Below, in pieces: positions 7,270-37,705 of a stretch of 64,000 nucleotides of DNA. The notes below the pieces were generated by a model that was not told the origin of the DNA, ran no database searches, and saw only the letters and a program-made list of their open reading frames with translations. Every line of letters starts with the position of its first letter. The stretch's first letter is position 1. Origin of the DNA: Enterobacter sp. RIT418. GTDB lineage: Bacteria > Pseudomonadota > Gammaproteobacteria > Enterobacterales > Enterobacteriaceae. Where the stretch lies: assembly GCF_003057745.1 (NCBI RefSeq), contig NZ_QBJD02000003.1, positions 186,001-250,000 of the forward strand. Direction: 5' to 3'. A program made the position numbers and the translations under genes.

Positions 7270-9342
7270 TTACGGACGTCGGAACAGGGCGATGCTTCGC
7301 CCGGCCAGCTCAAAGTCGACGGCGTCGGTTATTACCGCTCCGCGCGCGTCGCCGGCGGTGGAGAGCTCGAGCACCCAGCCGCCTTCGCCAAACTGCGGGA
7401 TCTGGAACGGCACGGTGCCTTCAAACGGGTTGAACAGCATCAGCACGTCGTGCCAGATACCCTCCTCCTGCTCCAGGTCCGGCCTGCTAATCGAGACCCC
7501 GATCGTCGAGCCTTCGTCCCACTGCTCGGACTGCTGCGGCCCGCCGCCCGCGTTGAACCAGCGGATCTCCAGCCCGTCGCGCCAGCTTTCGCGCCTGAGC
7601 AGCGGCTGTGCCGCCCGCAGCGCGATCAGCCTGCGGGTAAAATCGCGCAGCGCGTTGTCATGCTCCGTGAAATTCGCCCAGTCTACCCACGAAATCTCGC
7701 TGTCCTGACAGTAGCCGTTGTTATTGCCCTTCTGCGTGCGGCCAAACTCATCCCCCGCCAGCAGCATCGGCGTGCCGTGGGAGAACAGCAGCGTGGTCAG
7801 GAAATTGCGCTTCTGCTGCTCGCGGATCGCGATGATGTCCGCATTTTCCGTTGGCCCTTCTTCACCGTAGTTGCTGGAGCGGTTGTCGTTATGGCCGTCG
7901 TTGTTATCCTCGCCGTTGTCCGCGTTGTGCTTTTCGCTATAGGAAACGAGATCGTTTAGCGTAAAGCCGTCGTGGGCGGTAATGAAGTTGACGCTCGCCC
8001 AGGGGCGACGGCCGCGCAGATCGTATAAATCCCCGGAGCCGAGCAGGCGCGCGGCAAAGTCCGTGGTCACGTTCTCCCCGCGCCAGTATTCCCGCACGGT
8101 ATCGCGGTACTTGTCGTTCCATTCGCCCCAGCCTGGCGGAAAGCCGCCGACCTGATAGCCGCCGGGGCCAATGTCCCACGGCTCGCCGATAAGCTTCAGC
8201 CTGGACAGGACCGGGTCCTGCGTGACGGCGTCAAAAAAGCCGCCGCGCGGATCGAACCCTTCCGGCTCGCGCCCGAGGATCGTCCCCAGATCGAAGCGAA
8301 AGCCGTCGACGTGCATGGCCTGCGCCCAGTAGCGCAGCGAATCCATGACCATTTGCAGCACGCGCGGGTGCGACGTGTTGACCGTGTTGCCCGTGCCGGT
8401 ATCGTTGATGTAGTAGCGGTGCTGGTCCGGCAGGGTGCGGTAATAGCTGTAATTATCAATACCCTTGAACGAGAGCGTCGGCCCCAGCTCGTTCCCTTCG
8501 GCCGTGTGGTTGTAGACCACGTCCAGAATCACCTCGATGCCCGCGTCGTGGTAGGCGCGAACCATATCGCGGAAGCCCTGGATCCCCGCAGGCCCGTAGT
8601 AGCGCGACGCCGGGGCAAAGAAGCCCAGCGTGTTGTAGCCCCAGAAGTTTTTCAGCCCCCGATCAAGCAGGTGCTGGTCGTCCGGAAACCAGTGGACGGG
8701 CAGCAGCTCTACCGACGTAATGCCCAGGCTTTTGATGTAGTCCACCGAGGCCTTGTGCCCCATCCCTTCAAACGTGCCGCGCAGCTCGGCCGGTATGGCG
8801 GGGTTGAGCTGCGTAAACCCTTTTACGTGGCTCTCATAGACCACGGCGTGCGGCCAGGGAATGGACGGCCGGGCGTCGTCCTGCCAGTCAAGCGCCTGAG
8901 GATCAATCACCCGGCATTTTGGCGTAAACGGCGCGCTGTCACGCTCGTCAAAGCTCAGATCTTTATCCTCGTGGCCCAGCGCGTAGCCGAAGTGGGCATC
9001 GTTCCACTGAATATCCCCGACCAGCTCGCGCGCATAGGGATCGATAAGCAGCTTGTTCGGGTTAAAGCGGTGTCCGTTTTCCGGATCGTAAGGGCCATAC
9101 ACGCGGTAGCCGTACAGCGCCCCCGGCTTAAGGTCGGGAACGTAGCCGTGCCAGATTTCATCGGTATACTCGGGCAGCTCCAGCCTGGCGATCTCGTTTT
9201 TACCCGAGGGATCGTACAGGCAAAGCTCCACGCGCTCCGCGTGGGCAGAAAACAGCGCAAAATTAACGCCCTTGCCGTCATAATTTGCGCCAAGCTGCTG
9301 GCCGTGACCGGCCCGTATCTCAAATGCCGTATTCTTTTTCAT
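7270..9342 (-). CDS. glgX: Glycogen debranching enzyme GlgX/TreX
   Basis: 690-aa GH13 enzyme that hydrolyses alpha-1,6 branches of glycogen or limit dextrins in the cytosol. An N-terminal CBM48-like domain (GKGVNFALFSAHAERVELCL) precedes the TIM barrel. Catalytic-site motifs are visible: DVVYNHTAEGNELGPTLSFKG, GFRFDLGTILGREPEG (nucleophile Asp), KLIGEPWDIGPGGYQVGGFP (acid/base Glu) and FITAHDGFTLNDLV (transition-state Asp). Last gene of the treZ-treY-glgX operon, 15 bases after treY, so in this context it is the TreX component that frees linear maltodextrins for TreY. The usual glg operon partners are not next to it. Confidence 0.9.
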   Translation of the reverse strand: MKKNTAFEIRAGHGQQLGANYDGKGVNFALFSAHAERVELCLYDPSGKNEIARLELPEYTDEIWHGYVPDLKPGALYGYRVYGPYDPENGHRFNPNKLLIDPYARELVGDIQWNDAHFGYALGHEDKDLSFDERDSAPFTPKCRVIDPQALDWQDDARPSIPWPHAVVYESHVKGFTQLNPAIPAELRGTFEGMGHKASVDYIKSLGITSVELLPVHWFPDDQHLLDRGLKNFWGYNTLGFFAPASRYYGPAGIQGFRDMVRAYHDAGIEVILDVVYNHTAEGNELGPTLSFKGIDNYSYYRTLPDQHRYYINDTGTGNTVNTSHPRVLQMVMDSLRYWAQAMHVDGFRFDLGTILGREPEGFDPRGGFFDAVTQDPVLSRLKLIGEPWDIGPGGYQVGGFPPGWGEWNDKYRDTVREYWRGENVTTDFAARLLGSGDLYDLRGRRPWASVNFITAHDGFTLNDLVSYSEKHNADNGEDNNDGHNDNRSSNYGEEGPTENADIIAIREQQKRNFLTTLLFSHGTPMLLAGDEFGRTQKGNNNGYCQDSEISWVDWANFTEHDNALRDFTRRLIALRAAQPLLRRESWRDGLEIRWFNAGGGPQQSEQWDEGSTIGVSISRPDLEQEEGIWHDVLMLFNPFEGTVPFQIPQFGEGGWVLELSTAGDARGAVITDAVDFELAGRSIALFRRP

Positions 9343-9357
9343 TGTTATTCCCCAGGT

Positions 9358-11868
9358 TTATTCGCTGGTCATCAGAACCAGAATGCATCCCGTTTCAGAC
9401 GATACGTCCAGCGCGTCATGAAGCGTGCGCCGCTCGCCGGTAAACAGATCGCGATAGCGCTTGCCCGCGAGTTCTGGCGCAAGATCGATAACGGTGTTCG
9501 CCCACAGCGCCGGGTCAGGCCCGAGCCCGCGCTGCGTGACGTCAAACGCCAGCCGCGGTACCGCCACGATCAGCGCGGCGTCATCTTTGACGCGCGCCCA
9601 GGCGATGAGATGATTCTCCCGTTCGCCCCTCACCCGCAGCGGCAGCCAGTCTCCGTAGTGGAACAGCGCGGGCGCGTGCTGGCGCATCCGCAGCAGCGTC
9701 GCGGTGACGAACTGCTTCACGCTTCCGTCCCGCCAGCGCGCCTCGTCGCGGAACACGGTTGCATCAAGCCCCGCAAGATTCTCCGCGAGCCAGGCGAAAT
9801 CCGGCTCGCGGCGGTTGTCGGGATCGACAAGGCTAAAGTTCAGCGCCTCGCTGCCCTGATAGATATCCGGCACGCCGGGTGCGGTGAGCTTAATCACCGT
9901 CTGGCTCAGGCTGTTCATCAGCCCGGCGCGGACAAACGGCTGCAGGGCGTCGTTGAAATCCGTTAGGAACGCGGCGTTGTCCGGCGAGAGCAGGTTCCGG
10001 GCGTAGCTCAGCACCACGCTCTCATAGCTTTCGTTGCTGTCCGCCCAGTCGGTGCGCTGCTTGGCTTCGCGCAGCGCCTTTTCAACAAAGCCGAGGAAGC
10101 GGGTTTCGAGCTCGCTTAACCCCTCACGGTCGTCCGGGGTTTGCGTCGCGGGCCAGACGCCCGCCAGCGCCTGGTAAAGCATCCAGGTATCGGCCCCGTC
10201 GGGCGCGGTGCCGTCGTTGAGAAAACGCACGTGGGTCTGGTTCATCTGCCGCCAGCGCGCAAGGTTTTCCGCCCAGCGCGCCGGCGCTTCGGTCAGGGCG
10301 TATAGTCGTGCCCGCGCGTCTTCTCCGCGCTTGGTGTCGTGCGTCGAGGTGCCCAGCAGCGCGTCAGGCTGCCGCGCCAGGCGGATGCGCATCTCCTGGT
10401 GAAAGCGGGAAACGGAAAAGGCGCGCGGCGCCGGGTCGGCCCCGACCTCATTGAGCGCGAGGTCCATGTTGTGGCGAAAGAACAGCGTGTCCTCCACCGA
10501 TTTCGCCATCAGCGGCCCCGTCAGCTGCTGAAAACGGGTGCGGAACAACGCGGCGCGCTCGCGGTCGCTCTCGTTGAGTTCGCCGCGCAGGATCAGCACA
10601 ATCAGCGTGAGCGCGCCAGGCTCCGGCACGTCGAGCGTTTCTGCCACGCGCGCCAGCAGCGCCTCGTCGGCAGGCGTCAGCCCGTCCGCGGTGCCATAGG
10701 TGCGATAGACCGGAAACGCGATCAGCAGCTCGCGCAGCGCGTGGTGAAGCGCCTCGCGCGGCACCGCCACGCCGTTGCGCTGCGCCAGTTCGTCGGCAAT
10801 GTTCAGCAGCGTCGTAAACTCGCCTTCAAAGTTGCGATCGGTCATCAGCCCTTTCGCATCCCGCAGCGCCAGCTCCCGGTCGGTGATTTCGCCGACGGTC
10901 TTATCGTGGATCGTTTCCAGCAGCTCAAGGTTGTTATCGTCCACCAGCACCTCGGCCAGCGAGGCGATAAACTCGTATCCCGTGGTGCCCGATACCGGCC
11001 ACGCCTCGGGCAACTGTTCGCCCCTGGCGAGGATTTTTTCGACGGTGATATAGCAGTCCGGCCCCGCGGCCTGGCGCAGGCGATGGAGATACCCGAGCGG
11101 ATCGGCCAGGCCGTCGACGTGGTCGATGCGCAGGCCATCAACCACGCCCGCGTGGACCAGCTCGAGGATCAGCCGGTGCGTGTCGTTAAATACCGCCTCG
11201 TCTTCAACCCGCACCCCCACCAGCCCCGTAATTTCGAAAAAGCGCCGCCACGAGAGCTGCCTCGGCGCCTCGCGCCAGGACATCAGCCGCCAGCTCTGCT
11301 TCTCGTGCAGCGCGGCGATCGCCTCAGGGCCGACGGCGGTGAAATCTTCTAGATCGTCCACGCTGCCCGGATTCAGCGGCCAGTCGGTTTCGTAGTACCT
11401 GAACACCGGCTTATTCGTGACACTGTCACGTTTCAGCGCAATCGCGCCCTTCTCCAGCTCGGCTTCAAACGTGTCGCCGAGGAACGGCAGGGTCATCGGG
11501 CGGGACCAGTCGATGTCGAAGTAGCGCGCGTAGCGGCTTTGCTCGCCGCGTTCGATGACGTCCCGCCACCAGCGGTTTTCAAGGGAGGTGGACATATGGT
11601 TTGGCACGATGTCCAGAATCAGCCCCATGCCCGCCTGCTTTAGCGCCGCCGTCATGCGGTCAAACCCCGCCCGGCCTCCGATCGCCGGTTCGATTTCGTT
11701 CGGGTCGGTGACGTCATAGCCGTGGGTGGAGCCCGATGCGGCGGTAAATATCGGCGACGCGTACAGATGGCTAATGCCAAGATCCTTCAGGTACGGCACC
11801 AGCTCTGCCGCGCGGTCGAAGGTCATTCCGTTGCGAAACTGAATGCGCCAGGTTGATAACGGGATCAT
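9358..11868 (-). CDS. treY: Malto-oligosyltrehalose synthase
   Basis: 836 aa, GH13 family. It isomerises the reducing-end glucose of maltodextrins from alpha-1,4 to alpha,alpha-1,1, giving maltooligosyl trehalose. The N-terminus has LSTWRIQFRNGMTFDRAAEL and YLKDLGISHLYASPIFTA, then GSTHGYDVTDPNEIEPAIGG and DIVPNHMS. GLRIDHVDGLADP carries the nucleophile Asp, YITVEKILARGEQLP the Glu, and GTSTHDTKRGEDARARLYAL the conserved His-Asp. The family-typical large insertion follows. The start at 11868 overlaps the treZ stop (ATGA) with AAGGAGAGG upstream; an extension to 11895 is rejected. Works directly before TreZ. Confidence 0.92.
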   Translation of the reverse strand: MIPLSTWRIQFRNGMTFDRAAELVPYLKDLGISHLYASPIFTAASGSTHGYDVTDPNEIEPAIGGRAGFDRMTAALKQAGMGLILDIVPNHMSTSLENRWWRDVIERGEQSRYARYFDIDWSRPMTLPFLGDTFEAELEKGAIALKRDSVTNKPVFRYYETDWPLNPGSVDDLEDFTAVGPEAIAALHEKQSWRLMSWREAPRQLSWRRFFEITGLVGVRVEDEAVFNDTHRLILELVHAGVVDGLRIDHVDGLADPLGYLHRLRQAAGPDCYITVEKILARGEQLPEAWPVSGTTGYEFIASLAEVLVDDNNLELLETIHDKTVGEITDRELALRDAKGLMTDRNFEGEFTTLLNIADELAQRNGVAVPREALHHALRELLIAFPVYRTYGTADGLTPADEALLARVAETLDVPEPGALTLIVLILRGELNESDRERAALFRTRFQQLTGPLMAKSVEDTLFFRHNMDLALNEVGADPAPRAFSVSRFHQEMRIRLARQPDALLGTSTHDTKRGEDARARLYALTEAPARWAENLARWRQMNQTHVRFLNDGTAPDGADTWMLYQALAGVWPATQTPDDREGLSELETRFLGFVEKALREAKQRTDWADSNESYESVVLSYARNLLSPDNAAFLTDFNDALQPFVRAGLMNSLSQTVIKLTAPGVPDIYQGSEALNFSLVDPDNRREPDFAWLAENLAGLDATVFRDEARWRDGSVKQFVTATLLRMRQHAPALFHYGDWLPLRVRGERENHLIAWARVKDDAALIVAVPRLAFDVTQRGLGPDPALWANTVIDLAPELAGKRYRDLFTGERRTLHDALDVSSETGCILVLMTSE

Positions 11869-32960: not shown

Positions 32961-33084
32961 ATGTGGTGCGGTAATTCATTTTCAGCTCCTTTATACTATC
33001 TCCCGAACCGCAGCCCTCAGCACAGCCCAGAAAGATGATAAACGACAGTGTCAGGGACGGATCTTCAAAAATTGAGTGAGTGAC

Positions 33085-34782
33085 ATGGACAACAAACTGA
33101 AAAAACATCGTTCCCTTTATATTCCGTACGCCGGCCCCGTTCTGCTCGAATTCCCCCTGCTCAACAAAGGCAGCGCCTTTAGCATGGAAGAGCGCAGCAG
33201 CTTTAACCTGCTTGGCCTGCTGCCGGAAGTGGTCGAAACCATTGAAGAACAGGCGGAGCGCGCCTGGATTCAGTATCAGGGCTTCAAAACCGAAATCGAT
33301 AAACACATCTACCTGCGCAACATCCAGGACACCAACGAAACGCTTTTCTATCGCCTGGTGCAAAACCATCTCGAAGAGATGATGCCGGTGATTTATACCC
33401 CTACGGTCGGCGCGGCCTGTGAGCGTTTCTCCGAAATTTACCGTCGCTCGCGCGGCGTGTTCATCTCCTGGCCGAACCGTCACAACATGGATGATATCCT
33501 CCAAAACGTGCCAAACCACAACATCAAGGTGATCGTGGTGACCGACGGGGAACGTATTCTGGGCCTCGGCGACCAGGGCATCGGCGGGATGGGGATCCCC
33601 ATCGGCAAGCTCTCTCTGTATACCGCCTGTGGCGGCATCAGCCCGGCGTATACCCTGCCGGTGGTGCTGGACGTGGGGACCAACAATCAGCAGCTGCTGA
33701 ACGATCCGCTGTACATGGGCTGGCGCCATCCGCGCATTACCGACGACGAGTATTATCAGTTCGTTGATGATTTTATCCAGGCCGTGAAGCACCGCTGGCC
33801 GGACGTGCTGCTGCAGTTCGAAGATTTTGCCCAGAAGAACGCCATGCCGCTGCTGAACCGCTATCGCGATGAGATCTGCTCGTTTAACGATGACATCCAG
33901 GGCACCGCCGCCGTCACCGTCGGCACGCTGATTGCCGCCAGCCGCGCGGCGGGCAGCCAGCTCAGCTATCAGAAAATTGTCTTCCTTGGCGCAGGCTCCG
34001 CCGGGTGCGGTATCGCCGAGCAAATCATCTCCCAGACCCAGCGCGAAGGGTTAAGCGAGGAGCTGGCCCGCTCCCGCGTGTTTATGGTTGACCGCTTCGG
34101 CCTGCTGACCGACGGCATGCCGAACCTGCTTCCGTTCCAGACCAAGCTGGTGCAGAAACGTGAAAACCTGAAGAACTGGGATACCGACAACGAAGTCCTT
34201 TCCCTGCTTGACGTGGTGCGCAACGTGAAGCCGGACATTCTGATCGGCGTATCCGGGCAAACCGGTCTCTTCACCGAGGAGATCATTCGCGAGATGCATA
34301 AACACTGCGAGCGCCCTATCGTGATGCCGCTGTCTAACCCTACCTCGCGCGTGGAAGCGACGCCGCAGGACATCATTGCCTGGACCGAGGGCAACGCGCT
34401 GGTCGCGACCGGCAGCCCGTTCGATCCGGTAGTATGGAAAGATAAGGTCTATCCGATTGCCCAGTGCAACAACTCCTACATCTTCCCGGGGATTGGTCTG
34501 GGCGTGATCGCCTCCGGCGCGTCGCGCATTACCGATGAGATGCTGATGTCCGCAAGCGAAACGCTGGCCGGTTATTCTCCGCTGGTGAACAACGGCGAAG
34601 GGCTGGTGCTGCCGGAGCTGAAGGATATTCAGAAAGTGTCCCGCGCGATCGCGTTCGCGGTCGGTAAAATGGCGCAGCAGCAGGGCGTGGCGGTGAAAAC
34701 CTCCGCAGACGCCTTGCAGCAGGCTATAGACGATAACTACTGGATGCCGGAATACCGAAGCTATCGTCGGACGTCGATTTAA
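33085..34782 (+). CDS. maeA: NAD-dependent malic enzyme (malate dehydrogenase, oxaloacetate-decarboxylating)
   Basis: 565 aa, the E. coli MaeA length. It converts malate and NAD+ to pyruvate, CO2 and NADH in the cytosol. Motifs: [56 protein letters not shown] and [14 protein letters not shown] (metal-binding acidic residues), and the Rossmann motif [32 protein letters not shown] is conserved near the end. The start with residues [17 protein letters not shown] is chosen by homology over the ATG 9 bases upstream. A stem-loop and a GC-rich palindromic repeat follow. Confidence 0.96.
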
Positions 34783-34892
34783 CGTTGCGCTCGACCGTTT
34801 CCTTGTCGTGGGCTTTAATGGACGTTACCTCCGCCCGTCCCCGATAAGCCGGAAGGAATTAGCCGAAGACAAAATTGCCGGGAGCCCGGATT

Positions 34893-34922
34893 GTTAAGGA
34901 GGCGGCGGTGAGCCTCCTTAAC
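34893..34922. other. 11-bp stem-loop downstream of maeA
   Basis: GTTAAGGAGGC (34893-34903) and GCCTCCTTAAC (34912-34922) pair perfectly around an 8-base loop. No U-run follows. It probably marks the 3' end of the maeA transcript together with the repeat at 34997-35034. The rest of 34783-34892 shows no gene. Confidence 0.5.
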
Positions 34923-34996
34923 GCGTTCACAAGTCGTGTGATTTCAGAGTTGCAAGGCTCGTAAAGTGAACGTTACAACCACCACAGTCGTATGTT

Positions 34997-35034
34997 CCCC
35001 CTCACCCCAGCCCTCTCCCTCAAGGGAGAGGGGG
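34997..35034 (-). repeat. Palindromic CCCTCTCCC repeat, copy A, also terminator-like
   Basis: CCCTCTCCCT and AGGGAGAGGG form a 10-bp stem with a 2-base loop, followed by GGTTTTC. On its left is CCCTCACCCCAG. The same element lies in opposite orientation after narV (59357-59391), where CCCTCTCCC-TGT-GGGAGAGGG is followed by CGGAGTGAGGG. This is a dispersed intergenic repeat common in enterobacteria, often located after genes. Confidence 0.65.
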
Positions 35035-35091
35035 TTTTCGGTGCCAGAGTGTAATATGTGGGGAGCCCACCGCCTAGTGCGAGATACCCTC

Positions 35092-35120
35092 TAGCCAAAC
35101 TCTCTTTCCCCCGCTACACT
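35092..35120 (+). promoter_or_regulatory. Candidate sigma-70 promoter for the leader peptide/ABC-F transcript
   Basis: TAGCCA and TACACT are separated by exactly 17 bases and match the -35 and -10 hexamers at about half and two-thirds of positions. Transcription would start near 35127, about 34 bases before the leader start codon. Between the repeat and this site (35035-35091) I see nothing else. Confidence 0.35.
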
Positions 35121-35160
35121 CCCTTCATTCATTAACCCACTGAATATAAGGAGGCCAATT

Positions 35161-35244
35161 ATGCTGTACTGTGAAATTTTCAATGTTTCACATACACTTG
35201 GTGATCGCACCAGCTCAAGCGTTATCGGTATCGTGCTGCGATAA
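35161..35244 (+). CDS. Putative 27-residue leader peptide upstream of the ABC-F gene
   Basis: A short open frame begins at ATG 35161, 5 bases after a near-perfect AAGGAGG ribosome-binding site, far better than that of the ABC-F gene itself. It encodes MLYCEIFNVSHTLGDRTSSS and ends in VIGIVLR before TAA at 35242-35244. Its last ten codons and stop lie inside a 14-bp hairpin. This resembles uORFs in front of antibiotic-responsive ABC-F and rRNA methylase genes, where a stalled ribosome changes RNA folding. I know no matching peptide; whether it is translated or stalls is inference. Confidence 0.55.
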   Translation: MLYCEIFNVSHTLGDRTSSSVIGIVLR

Positions 35245-35345
35245 CTTCTGCTTGAGCGAAGACACCAACCCCTGAAATCCCTTCTCTCGGGCTTACTGAG
35301 TTATCGTCAGCGATGTTTGACGAGGCATACACATGCCTGTAACTC
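35214..35345 (+). promoter_or_regulatory. Putative attenuator: alternative hairpins between leader peptide and ABC-F gene
   Basis: Hairpin 1: CTCAAGC + GTTATCG (35214-35227) pairs with CGATAAC (35239-35245) and GCTTGAG (35250-35256), 14 bp with a 4-base bulge, overlapping the end of the leader frame. Hairpin 2: GAGTTA (35298-35303) pairs with TAACTC (35340-35345) enclosing a small AGGCAT/ATGCCT stem, ending 3 bases before the ABC-F ribosome-binding site GGGTAAG. The segment CGATAAC of hairpin 1 can instead pair with GTTATCG at 35300-35306, which would break hairpin 2. These pairings are exclusive, the logic of an attenuator. Confidence 0.5.
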
Positions 35346-35359
35346 TTGGGTAAGCAACA

Positions 35360-37069
35360 ATGAGCACTTTACTCACTGCACAATCTTTACGCGTTGAAAC
35401 GGCGTTTGGCACGCTCTTCGACTCTCTCTCCTTTACGCTGAAAAAAGGCGACCGCATCGGCCTGCTGGGCGATAACGGCTGCGGCAAAAGCACGCTGTTA
35501 AAGATCCTCGACGGCACCGACTCCCCTGCTTTCGGCACCGTTGCGCTGGCCGGGCATTGCCTGCTGGCGCGCGTGGAACAGCACCTGCCGCAGGAAATTC
35601 TCTCACTGACCATGCTGGACGCGGTCCTGGCACAACTCCCTGTCGGTGAACGGGAAAGCCTGCGCTGGAAAGCGGAAACGCTGCTGGCGGGAATGGGCTT
35701 TACGCCGCACGATATGGCGCTGTGCGCGGCCACGCTCAGCGGCGGCCAGCACACGCGGCTGCTGCTGGCGCGGGCGCTGATTCGCGATCCGGACCTGCTG
35801 CTGCTTGACGAGCCCAGCAACCACCTCGATCTGCCAACCCTGCTCTGGCTGGAGCAGTTTTTACTGAGCTGGTCGGGAAGCTTCGTGCTGGTCTCGCACG
35901 ACCGGCAGCTGCTGGACGCCGTCACTAACGGCAGCTGGATCCTGCGCGATAAAACGCTGCACTACTTTGCCCTGCCCTGCACGACGGCGCGAAAGGCGCT
36001 GCTGGCGAAGGACGAAAGCGACGCGCTGCGCCACAAGGCCGAGCAAAAGGAGATTGACCGCGTTGCCGCCAGCGCCAGGCGGCTGGCGACCTGGGGCAAG
36101 GTCTACGACAACGAAGATCTGGCCCGCAAGGCGAAGCAGATGGAAAAACAGGTCGAGCGGCTGAAGGTAAGCCAGACCGCGCTCACGGCGGGCAGCCCGT
36201 GGACGCTCACCCTGCGCGGCGACGCGCTGCGGGCTGACCGCCTGCTGGAGATGGTAAATCTTGCCGTACCGCCCGCGCCCGGCCAGCCCGCGCTGTTCAA
36301 CGTGGACATTGCGCGGCTGAAAAGCGGCGATCGCGTGGCGATTGTCGGACGCAACGGCTGCGGGAAATCCTCCCTGATGCGGCTTATCTGGCGCCAGATG
36401 ACCGAAGAACCGGCGGAGGACGGGCTGAAAATCCACCCTCGCGTTGCTCCCGGCTACTATGACCAGACGCTAAACCAGCTGCCGGACAACGCCACGCTGC
36501 TGGACGCGCTTGAGCCGTTTGCGCCCCATCCGCAGGATCGCAAGATGGCGCTGATCGGCGCCGGTTTCCCATGGGCGCGCCACGGGCAGAAGGTCAGCAC
36601 CCTCAGCGGCGGAGAGCGTTCACGGCTGCTGTTTGTTGGGCTGACGCTCGCCCGGTATAGCCTGCTGATGCTCGACGAGCCGACCAACCATCTGGATATG
36701 GAAGGCAAAGAGGCGCTGGCAGAAACTCTCCAGCAGTTTGAAGGCGGTGTCCTGCTGGTGAGCCACGATCGCCAGCTGATTAGCCACAGCTGCAACCGCT
36801 TCTGGCTGATTGAGGACGGTGCGCTCAGCGAGTGGCACGACGCCGAAGCCGTGTTTGAGTGGCTGCGCGAATCGTCCGGCGTCATACCGCAGGCGGCGGT
36901 CGTTCAAACAGCCTCGAAGCAGCCTTCGCCTTCAGATGATTTGCTCGAGCGCCTGGTTGCGCTGGAGGCGCTGCTTGCAGAGGATCTGGCGCGCAAGCCG
37001 AAGCATCAAAAACCGCAGCTTCAGGCGCAGTGGCGCGAGGAGATTAAAAACCTGGAAGAACAGCTGTAG
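35360..37069 (+). CDS. ABC-F family ATPase, ribosome-acting type
   Basis: 569 aa, soluble. Two ABC domains without membrane segments. First: Walker A GLLGDNGCGKSTLLKIL, signature TLSGGQHTRLLLARAL, Walker B LLLLDEPSNHLD. Second: AIVGRNGCGKSSLMRLI, STLSGGERSRLLFVGLTLA, LLMLDEPTNHLD. A charged helical linker, about residues 215-275 (ARKAKQMEKQVERLKVSQTA), joins them, and a C-terminal helical hairpin (LLERLVALEALLAEDLARKP) follows. ABC-F proteins enter the ribosomal E site; some protect against antibiotics, others resolve stalls. It differs from EttA, Uup, YbiT and YheS as I remember them, so it is an additional member. A leader peptide with alternative hairpins lies upstream. Confidence 0.85.
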   Translation: MSTLLTAQSLRVETAFGTLFDSLSFTLKKGDRIGLLGDNGCGKSTLLKILDGTDSPAFGTVALAGHCLLARVEQHLPQEILSLTMLDAVLAQLPVGERESLRWKAETLLAGMGFTPHDMALCAATLSGGQHTRLLLARALIRDPDLLLLDEPSNHLDLPTLLWLEQFLLSWSGSFVLVSHDRQLLDAVTNGSWILRDKTLHYFALPCTTARKALLAKDESDALRHKAEQKEIDRVAASARRLATWGKVYDNEDLARKAKQMEKQVERLKVSQTALTAGSPWTLTLRGDALRADRLLEMVNLAVPPAPGQPALFNVDIARLKSGDRVAIVGRNGCGKSSLMRLIWRQMTEEPAEDGLKIHPRVAPGYYDQTLNQLPDNATLLDALEPFAPHPQDRKMALIGAGFPWARHGQKVSTLSGGERSRLLFVGLTLARYSLLMLDEPTNHLDMEGKEALAETLQQFEGGVLLVSHDRQLISHSCNRFWLIEDGALSEWHDAEAVFEWLRESSGVIPQAAVVQTASKQPSPSDDLLERLVALEALLAEDLARKPKHQKPQLQAQWREEIKNLEEQL

Positions 37070-37105: not shown

Positions 37106-37705
37106 TCACTGCGGGGCTTTTGCTTTCCACGCATCCCACGCCTGCTTGATTTCCTGTTTCGCCGCGGCGGCATCGTTAAAGCCGCTCAGCTCCACGTTTT
37201 TACGCCCTTCCGGCAGCTGCTTGTAGACGCGGAAAAATGACTCAAGGCGCTGGACCTCAATCTTCGGCAGATCGCTCAGCTCGTGGATGTCGTCGTACGT
37301 CGGGTCGATTTTGCTGGCAGGGACCGCCACGATTTTGTCGTCCTTCTCGCCGCCGTCCACCATCTTCAGCACGCCGATGGCGCGCAGCTTGATCAGCGTG
37401 CCCGGCGCCAGCGGTGCGCGGGTATAGAAGATGACGTCCAGCGGATCGCCGTCACCGGCTAAAGACTGGGTCAACGAGCCGTAGTTCGCCGGATACGCCA
37501 CCGGCATGGACTGGAAGCGATCGGCAACGATAAACCCGGTCTTTGCATCGGTTTCGTATTTGATTATCCCACCCGCCGGGATCTCGGTGACGGCGTAGAA
37601 CTCCTCCGGATTATTGTCCGGCTGAGGAAACTCAAGAATATTTTGTGCCTGTACGGAAGCGGACAGGAAAACGCCCGCTGCGATAAGTTTTTTCACCAGA
37701 TGCAT
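37106..37705 (-). CDS. Exported family I inorganic pyrophosphatase
   Basis: 199 aa. An N-terminal signal peptide (MHLVKKLIAAGVFLSASVQA) precedes the pyrophosphatase domain, so the enzyme should work in the periplasm; the usual cytosolic Ppa has no leader. Active-site features are present: EIPAGGIIKYETDAKTG, VAYPANYGSLTQSLAGDGDP and LDVIFYTRAPLAPGT (the DxDPxD cluster), then GEKDDKIVAVPASKIDP. It hydrolyses diphosphate to phosphate using Mg2+. It stands alone, convergent with the ABC-F gene. The main cytosolic ppa is expected elsewhere in the genome. Confidence 0.82.
   Translation of the reverse strand: MHLVKKLIAAGVFLSASVQAQNILEFPQPDNNPEEFYAVTEIPAGGIIKYETDAKTGFIVADRFQSMPVAYPANYGSLTQSLAGDGDPLDVIFYTRAPLAPGTLIKLRAIGVLKMVDGGEKDDKIVAVPASKIDPTYDDIHELSDLPKIEVQRLESFFRVYKQLPEGRKNVELSGFNDAAAAKQEIKQAWDAWKAKAPQ

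Follow-up and report, generated by a model that had tools for sequence, protein, structure and literature searches.

A probable ribosome-mediated attenuator, with a conserved leader peptide and competing RNA structures, ahead of an ABC-F gene in Enterobacter and its relatives

The gene considered here encodes an ABC-F ATPase of 569 amino acids and occupies positions 35360-37069 of a 64,000-nucleotide stretch of Enterobacter sp. RIT418 DNA (hereafter the window: assembly GCF_003057745.1, contig NZ_QBJD02000003.1, positions 186,001 to 250,000). All coordinates are those of the window, and the features described lie on its plus strand unless otherwise stated. Upstream of the gene is a short leader open reading frame (ORF) of 27 codons at 35161-35244, listed among the ORFs of the window and found again in relatives, that encodes MLYCEIFNVSHTLGDRTSSSVIGIVLR before its stop codon and is preceded at 35148-35154 by a ribosome binding site (RBS), AAGGAGG, that is conserved in the alignment described below. 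The ribosome-binding region of the ABC-F gene itself, at 35346-35354, reads TTGGGTAAG here and mostly TTGAGTAAG in relatives. A first-pass annotation, made from the letters of this DNA, had described the 27-codon frame and its AAGGAGG, both of which are present, and had proposed that the leader and a set of mutually exclusive hairpins constitute a ribosome-stalling attenuator of the ABC-F gene, a proposal that is supported by the conservation of the leader and by compensatory pairing.

The leader is a constant companion of the gene. A DNA search found strong matches to the region in 58 of 60 genomes of the same genus, and the 27-codon leader is present in all 58. In the family, the ABC-F protein was found at an E-value of 1e-150 or better in 110 of 392 genomes, and an intact leader precedes it in 109 of these (27 codons in 107 cases, 28 in two), so the frame conservation among relatives that had been suggested as a check is borne out. 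The lone exception, locus L094, has a 1-nucleotide deletion after leader codon 22, with its RNA elements intact. Leaders were also present at all 19 loci fetched outside the family, which come from three further families of its order, with 26 codons in ten and 28 codons in nine. Carriers include Klebsiella pneumoniae, Vibrio campbellii, Aeromonas caviae, and a Morganella plasmid of 50 kb.

The pattern of substitution in the leader indicates that it is translated. The analysis used 69 disjoint near-neighbour pairs drawn from the 141 distinct 27-codon leaders, those of 26 or 28 codons being excluded. In these pairs, single changes in codons 2-17 were synonymous in 69 cases and nonsynonymous in 84, a synonymous fraction of 0.45 where 0.25 is expected (p = 1.2e-7). 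The other two frames have no synonymous excess, and coding selection on these codons is therefore specific to the leader frame. For codons 18-27 there is no synonymous excess in the true frame (0.19 versus 0.31 expected), and the conservation of this part of the leader is therefore that of an RNA rather than of a peptide. Directly 5' of the RNA switch, codons 10-16 (35188-35208) specify the conserved peptide S-H-x-F/L-G-D/N-R, as tallied codon by codon over 141 leaders and 150 peptides. The conserved residues in Enterobacteriaceae are S10, H11, F/L13, G14, D/N15, and R16; across 150 distinct peptides from all families, position 13 is F in 97, L in 43, Y in 8, and I in 2, and G14 is found in 134. 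The third base of codon 15 is T in all 141 of the distinct 27-codon leaders (GAT in 112, AAT in 26, CAT in 3), which amounts to a synonymous constraint without an evident cause. A second short ORF at 35313-35342, with its ATG in GCGATGTTTGACG, was dropped because reading of the alignments revealed that its frame is not maintained in all relatives.

The RNA structures were examined in an alignment, A1, of 71 sequences, comprising 61 representatives selected by shared 8-mers from 158 distinct Enterobacteriaceae upstream sequences, and ten sequences of families f10 and f21; nine rows of family f25 (ten genomes of which were matched by the RNA model described below, and nine fetched) were aligned separately as A2. 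Two structures can be drawn. Structure X consists of hairpin A, the hairpin SL1, and an RBS sequestor enclosing two smaller hairpins, whereas structure Y consists of a single switch hairpin that is mutually exclusive with both SL1 and the sequestor.

In structure X, hairpin A lies within the leader (35171-35176 with 35186-35191), with 86.5% of alignment cells paired and four of its six pairs changed on both sides. It is not kept in f10 and f21, as judged by eye from A1. Among Enterobacteriaceae, its GTGAA..TTCAC arms are replaced by GTAAAA/TTTTAC in L108 and by GTGAG/TTCGC in L109. SL1, which can form when its 5' arm is free of ribosome, pairs 35213-35220 with 35250-35257 and 35221-35227 with 35239-35245 (97.7% and 84.8% of cells paired). 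The hairpin first recognised here was correctly placed but was given as 14 bp; it has 15 pairs, joining 35213-35227 to 35239-35257 with a 4-nucleotide bulge. The sequestor includes the second hairpin noted in the first-pass annotation, 35298-35303 with 35340-35345, prolonged by a helix of 35291-35296 with 35350-35355 in which the ribosome-binding region of the ABC-F gene is itself paired (86.1% and 89.9% of cells paired, respectively). Inside it, at 35305-35338, are the two smaller hairpins, 35305-35309 with 35318-35322 and 35323-35328 with 35333-35338 (helices 6 and 7 of structure X), the latter with two adjacent pairs that are double-changed in 17 and 9 sequences. The ribosome-binding region can also pair with the 5' arm of SL1 at 35213-35219 (92.5% of cells paired).

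Structure Y spans 35236-35310 and joins 35236-35238 to 35308-35310, 35239-35245 to 35300-35306, and 35250-35261 to 35281-35292. Its outer helix has 98.7% and its inner helix 92.0% of cells paired, with four double-changed pairs in each. The seven-base segment CGATAAC (35239-35245), for which a choice of partners between 35221-35227 and 35300-35306 had been proposed, has both pairings, the latter as part of the longer helix 35236-35245 / 35300-35310. Enclosed by Y is a variable, C-rich and G-poor spacer, 35262-35280 (alignment columns 127-189). Among the 61 Enterobacteriaceae representatives, identity is 0.96 and 0.91 in the two switch arms, 0.35 in the spacer, and 0.45 at third codon positions of the ABC-F gene.

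Both structures are supported by paired changes, which had been suggested as a check on the stems. For X, 89.7% of cells in A1 are paired and 19 of 44 pairs are double-changed (mean of shuffles 11.6; 1 of 500 as high); for Y, the corresponding values are 92.3% and 16 of 33 (mean 7.2; 0 of 500 as high). These shuffles ignore relatedness, which is kept when the partners are slid by 1-3 columns, and such sliding lowers pairing to 26-44%. RNAalifold, with no structure supplied, returned the outer Y helix (35236-35245 / 35300-35310) and one small hairpin. In the window, 35140-35380 has a folding z-score of -3.7, a stability reached by 2 of 200 dinucleotide shuffles. The region 34700-35500 gave five listed Rfam matches, all below their gathering scores. 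Taken together, the comparative data argue for two mutually exclusive structures.

The RNA and the gene are also linked beyond the family. A covariance model, R1, that runs from leader codon 17 to the ABC-F start and was built from 50 sequences, none of them from f25, gave 32 matches in 295 genomes of the order. Thirty-one of these are in genomes with an ABC-F of at least 52% identity, and conversely the element was found in 31 of the 32 ABC-F genomes, including all ten of f25; the remaining match is weak (E 0.07) and in a genome without this ABC-F. The search used stricter filters, with which weak copies may be missed. The ABC-F genome that R1 passed over, G257 (gene at C107:25696-27417, upstream region L294), encodes an ABC-F of the same family at 43% identity, without such a leader, and this gene possibly belongs to a related but differently controlled subfamily. 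The genome of the window has one R1 copy. When 369 genomes were sampled from the class, some of them of the order, the window itself was the lone hit at E 1e-90. Relatives at 33-38% identity occur on Sinorhizobium, Rhizobium and similar plasmid records. The element is larger and older than the first-pass annotation described.

How a translating ribosome would affect these structures was computed by folding the RNA 3' of a ribosome placed at each leader codon and calculating the energy needed to open the ABC-F start and its binding site. The sweep covered 80 leaders, 61 from Enterobacteriaceae, ten from f10 and f21, and nine from f25, for which values are given in that order. With the P site at codons 5-13, the mean opening energy is 7.3-8.0, 7.0-7.9, and 9.1-10.3 kcal/mol; at codons 15-19 it is 3.9-4.1, 2.9-3.5, and 3.8-4.5 kcal/mol; and at codon 27 it is 5.7, 6.4, and 9.1 kcal/mol. 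The computed cost drops at codon 14, remains low until codon 22 in Enterobacteriaceae, about 24 in f10 and f21, and 19 in f25, and then climbs toward the stop codon. The range of codons that opens the gene is 14-22 for the leader of the window, and 14-19 is common to all three groups. In the Enterobacteriaceae, codons 14-21 are better than early positions by more than 1 kcal in 54 of 61 leaders. As a control, nine leaders were each compared with 30 dinucleotide shuffles, and a profile at least 1 kcal below both flanks was found in 8 of the 9 real leaders versus 8 of the 270 shuffles.

The two sides of this profile have different causes. While the ribosome is 5' of codon 14, the 5' arm of SL1 is free and either folds into SL1 or binds the RBS; for a ribosome at codon 10, the expected number of arm-to-RBS pairs exceeds one in 52 of 61, 8 of 10, and 9 of 9 leaders. 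Once past codon 22, the ribosome covers the switch arm. In this model, therefore, it is a ribosome sitting on CUCAAG that opens the gene. At the stop codon, both in the leader of the window and in the sweep, the switch arm lies under the ribosome and the sequestor forms again. A stall near the end of the leader had been put forward as the event that frees the ABC-F start. The sweep supports a stalling switch but places the best position in the middle of the leader; the very end is not the best opener on average because of the covered switch arm and the re-formed sequestor.

Sequence evolution shows a translated leader with a conserved peptide segment, competing structures, and linkage of all these to the gene, and we consider it probable that the element is a ribosome-mediated attenuator of translation, in which stalling just after S-H-x-F-G-(D/N)-R turns the ABC-F gene on. 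With no ribosome on the second half of the leader, or with the leader finished, the RBS of the ABC-F gene would be hidden in the mRNA by either of two routes. SL1 may form, leaving the downstream segment free for the sequestor stem, or the 5' arm of SL1, CUCAAG, may pair with the binding site CUUGAG itself. A ribosome stalled immediately after the conserved peptide, with roughly codons 14-19 in its P site, would cover CUCAAG, such that the freed stop-codon segment CUGCGAUAAC and the GCUUGAGCGAAG that follows could build the switch hairpin Y. Formation of Y would destroy the sequestor and expose the ABC-F start, and the protein would thus be made when ribosomes stall. We infer that ribosomes stall at codons 14-19 in cells and that ABC-F synthesis rises as a result. 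The stall might be caused by a ribosome-targeting drug, or by the nascent chain, either by itself or together with a small molecule, and the ABC-F protein may in turn act on stalled ribosomes, perhaps on those of its own leader too, as MsrD does.

Several observations weigh against this mechanism or parts of it. Covariation between the SL1 arm and the RBS is weak, with three double-changed pairs where shuffles average 2.4 and 211 of 500 are as high, and for structure X the number of further pair types, one of five measures, is unexceptional (75 of 500 shuffles as high). The upper stem of SL1, at 84.8% of cells paired, includes a pair that fails in 30 of the 71 sequences. The inner helix proposed by RNAalifold differs from that of Y (35253-35257 / 35291-35295, not 35250-35261 / 35281-35292), and SL1 and the sequestor are missing from its output, in this case because RNAalifold gives a single structure. 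In the sweep, 4 of the 61 Enterobacteriaceae have early positions that open more easily than codons 14-21; relative to the stop codon, codons 14-21 gain more than 1 kcal in only 34 of the 61 and do worse in 10. One control leader, L181, misses the 1-kcal criterion (-0.7), a value as low as that of 2 of its own 30 shuffles. Lastly, the two conformations of the window are nearly equal in computed energy (-80.3 with SL1 forced versus -81.5 with Y forced), and folding order or ribosome traffic must therefore set the OFF state.

A different use of the same ribosome would be Rho-dependent attenuation of transcription, whereby the C-rich stretch 3' of the leader stop codon, once vacated, loads Rho, and the hairpin Y built upon stalling hides part of it, with the RBS stems being secondary or additional. 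The composition of the spacer fits a possible Rho loading site. It has 32% C and 8% G, C being over twice as frequent as G in 51 of 71 sequences, and together with the adjoining Y arm these values become 39%, 7%, and 65 of 71; nor was an intrinsic terminator found between the leader and the gene. However, the spacer is short (mean 19.5 nucleotides, range 10-48), and the sequestor, which is conserved with paired changes, would be superfluous under Rho. Rho as the principal mechanism is thus unlikely, although it may add a transcriptional layer. The nearly invariant L-R at the end of the leader (L in 144 and R in 149 of 150 distinct peptides) recalls another mechanism, that of TnaC and SpeFL, where the whole nascent peptide arrests the ribosome at the leader stop codon. 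The codons concerned fall within 18-27, which lack a synonymous excess and whose conservation is explained by RNA pairing, and L094 has lost the peptide end while keeping the RNA. The mean opening energy is also higher at the stop codon, where the switch arm is covered, than at codons 15-19, with 10 of 61 Enterobacteriaceae showing the reverse. Arrest at the stop codon therefore seems improbable.

The layout of a leader followed by mutually exclusive hairpins is equally that of the trp and his operons, where attenuation responds to shortage of one amino acid. Here, the longest run of a single residue is two or three serines, which are fixed by RNA pairing, residues 15-18 vary between families, and the controlled gene is an ABC-F rather than a biosynthetic gene, all of which make sensing of an amino acid a very doubtful function. 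There is even less to commend an RNA that binds a ligand or is the target of a small RNA, with the ORF incidental. The strong conservation of the RNA, and a hairpin A to which no role is assigned, would be in keeping with such an element, but the leader has a strong RBS and frame-specific coding selection over codons 2-17, and the RNA has no Rfam match at the gathering score. The codon test led to the rejection of an RNA-only origin. Loss of the peptide end with retention of the RNA pairing, which the attenuator with a mid-leader stall predicts to be tolerable, is seen in L094 and L234 (Phytobacter massiliensis), both with the deletion after codon 22.

The ABC-F protein that would be controlled in this way is probably a ribosome protection or rescue factor. 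Pfam ABC_tran matches it in two stretches, consistent with tandem ABC domains, and the predicted structure (mean predicted local distance difference test score 88.2) has an ABC-F fold with long helices at 207-248 and 252-270 between the ABC domains. The best NCBIfam model, NF000355 for general ribosomal-protection ABC-F proteins, scores 310.1 bits, below its cut-off of 380, and among the matches listed the named resistance families fall further below their own cut-offs. Among solved relatives, the best sequence matches are to YheS of E. coli (213 bits) and VmlR of Bacillus, which is listed as ExpZ (187 bits). The best Foldseek match is VmlR2, with housekeeping ABC-F proteins close behind and ABCF1, YheS, and PoxtA also matching, and such fold searches do not decide between a resistance and a housekeeping ABC-F. 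The gene had been called an extra ABC-F gene, and this description holds, since the same genome has three further matches at E 1e-30 or better that are 30-35% identical.

On distribution alone, the protein probably belongs to subfamily PAF1. It is found in Vibrio, Enterobacter, Klebsiella, Serratia, and Citrobacter, and 5426 E. coli genomes contain no place that covers 80% of the ABC-F query; these genera match those given for PAF1, a subfamily absent from Escherichia, by Murina et al. 2019 (PMC6723617). That paper uses phylogeny to predict that PAF1 is a resistance factor and in three places calls it worth investigating, and the phrase 'upstream open reading' is absent from its main text.

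The transcript that carries the leader probably begins with it, because a terminator-like hairpin follows the upstream gene. This gene is maeA (33076-34782), and 3' of it, at 35011-35032, is a strong GC-rich palindrome, CCCTCTCCCTCAAGGGAGAGGG, followed by a T-rich stretch. Both terminator-like sites that were found (35011-35032 and 35015-35034) precede the leader, with none between the leader and the ABC-F gene. Inspection by eye suggests a promoter-like sequence at 35092-35120, with TAGCCA (35092-35097), a 17-nucleotide spacing, and a -10-like TACACT (35115-35120). By a scripted count, 58 of 80 leaders have the hexamer TA[CT]A[AC]T 33-58 nucleotides 5' of the leader start, but none of the ten of f10 and f21 do; a consensus promoter scanner reported no promoter. 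Downstream of the ABC-F gene, in the opposite orientation, is an inorganic pyrophosphatase-like gene (37106-37705), both neighbours being identified from the ORFs and from Klebsiella annotation. In a Klebsiella pneumoniae record (L297), two extra genes (1261-2639), one of them annotated as a glycosyl transferase, separate maeA from the leader, and the leader ORF is missing from the incomplete gene table of that record. In the case of Morganella morganii, the 50-kb plasmid (L296, NZ_CP070536.1) carries the leader and ABC-F gene (8001-9740) amid GNAT, ada, alkB, and prp genes, a stretch that looks like a piece of chromosome.

Control by an upstream ORF (uORF) has been described for resistance ABC-F genes of Gram-positive bacteria. 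The vmlR, msrD, and cplR leaders rely on short uORFs, where drugs cause ribosomes to stall, together with intrinsic terminators (PMC9226507, PMC10314930, PMC10201436), and the element described here looks to be built on the same principle. The marks of a uORF-controlled ABC-F gene found here are a conserved short ORF with its own RBS, and exclusive structures that would hide or free the RBS of the gene, whereas an intrinsic terminator between leader and gene was not found. In Bacillus subtilis, for instance, stalling on the vmlR uORF gives the ON state of a leader that, as here, has mutually exclusive hairpins and a stem partly hiding the Shine-Dalgarno (SD) sequence (PMC9226507). According to that report, the vmlR uORF has three codons (MIN) and the leader includes an intrinsic terminator and RNA polymerase pausing, in contrast to the 26-28 codons here and the lack of an identified intrinsic terminator; the computed range of opening at codons 14-19 further sets the two apart. 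The MsrDL leader peptide likewise precedes an ABC-F gene, but has a Rho-independent terminator and a drug-dependent stall established by experiment (PMC10314930). The MsrD protein relieves the stall that induces msrD (PMC10314930), and by analogy it is possible that the ABC-F protein here relieves its own inducing stall. The resistance genes cplR, vmlR2, and lsaA also have conserved uORFs and anti-SD elements, although their peptides, as reported, are of 3-4 residues (MR[I/M], MK[L/Q], MAGN), their hosts are Gram-positive, and cplR has an intrinsic terminator (PMC10201436). In a Gram-negative host, the toiL uORF of E. coli topAI senses ribosome-targeting antibiotics, but it controls a toxin-antitoxin operon rather than an ABC-F gene, and its first seven residues are reported to be conserved (PMC12121999). 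Thus, the apparent differences from these ABC-F leaders are a long ORF, a mid-ORF computed opening range, apparent SD sequestration instead of an intrinsic terminator, and Gram-negative hosts. Among the titles and abstract openings listed from the open-access literature, with preprints and most subscription papers out of reach, no paper dealt with this leader, and PMC6723617 was the one paper on bacterial PAF1.

Inducible uORF control is described for Gram-positive resistance ABC-F genes (PMC9226507, PMC10314930, PMC10201436), and here a leader that looks to be of this kind is conserved ahead of an uncharacterised ABC-F in Klebsiella pneumoniae, Enterobacter, Vibrio, and Aeromonas. The prediction that PAF1 is a resistance factor becomes directly testable, as the inducer of the leader would name the stress that the protein answers, and the conserved peptide just 5' of the codons that open the gene may define a new arrest motif. 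The finding suggests that Gram-negative bacteria have an inducible factor of this type, which perhaps responds to antibiotics. More speculatively, and with distinctly less confidence than in the attenuator itself, the element could represent an ancient, order-wide stress sensor of Gram-negative bacteria, in which a specific drug class or a natural small molecule in the exit tunnel would stall a long arrest peptide in mid-sequence and so induce a rescue ABC-F that clears the arrest. If true, such a self-limiting loop would constitute an inducible intrinsic defence in Enterobacter, Klebsiella, Vibrio, and Aeromonas, one that E. coli is without.

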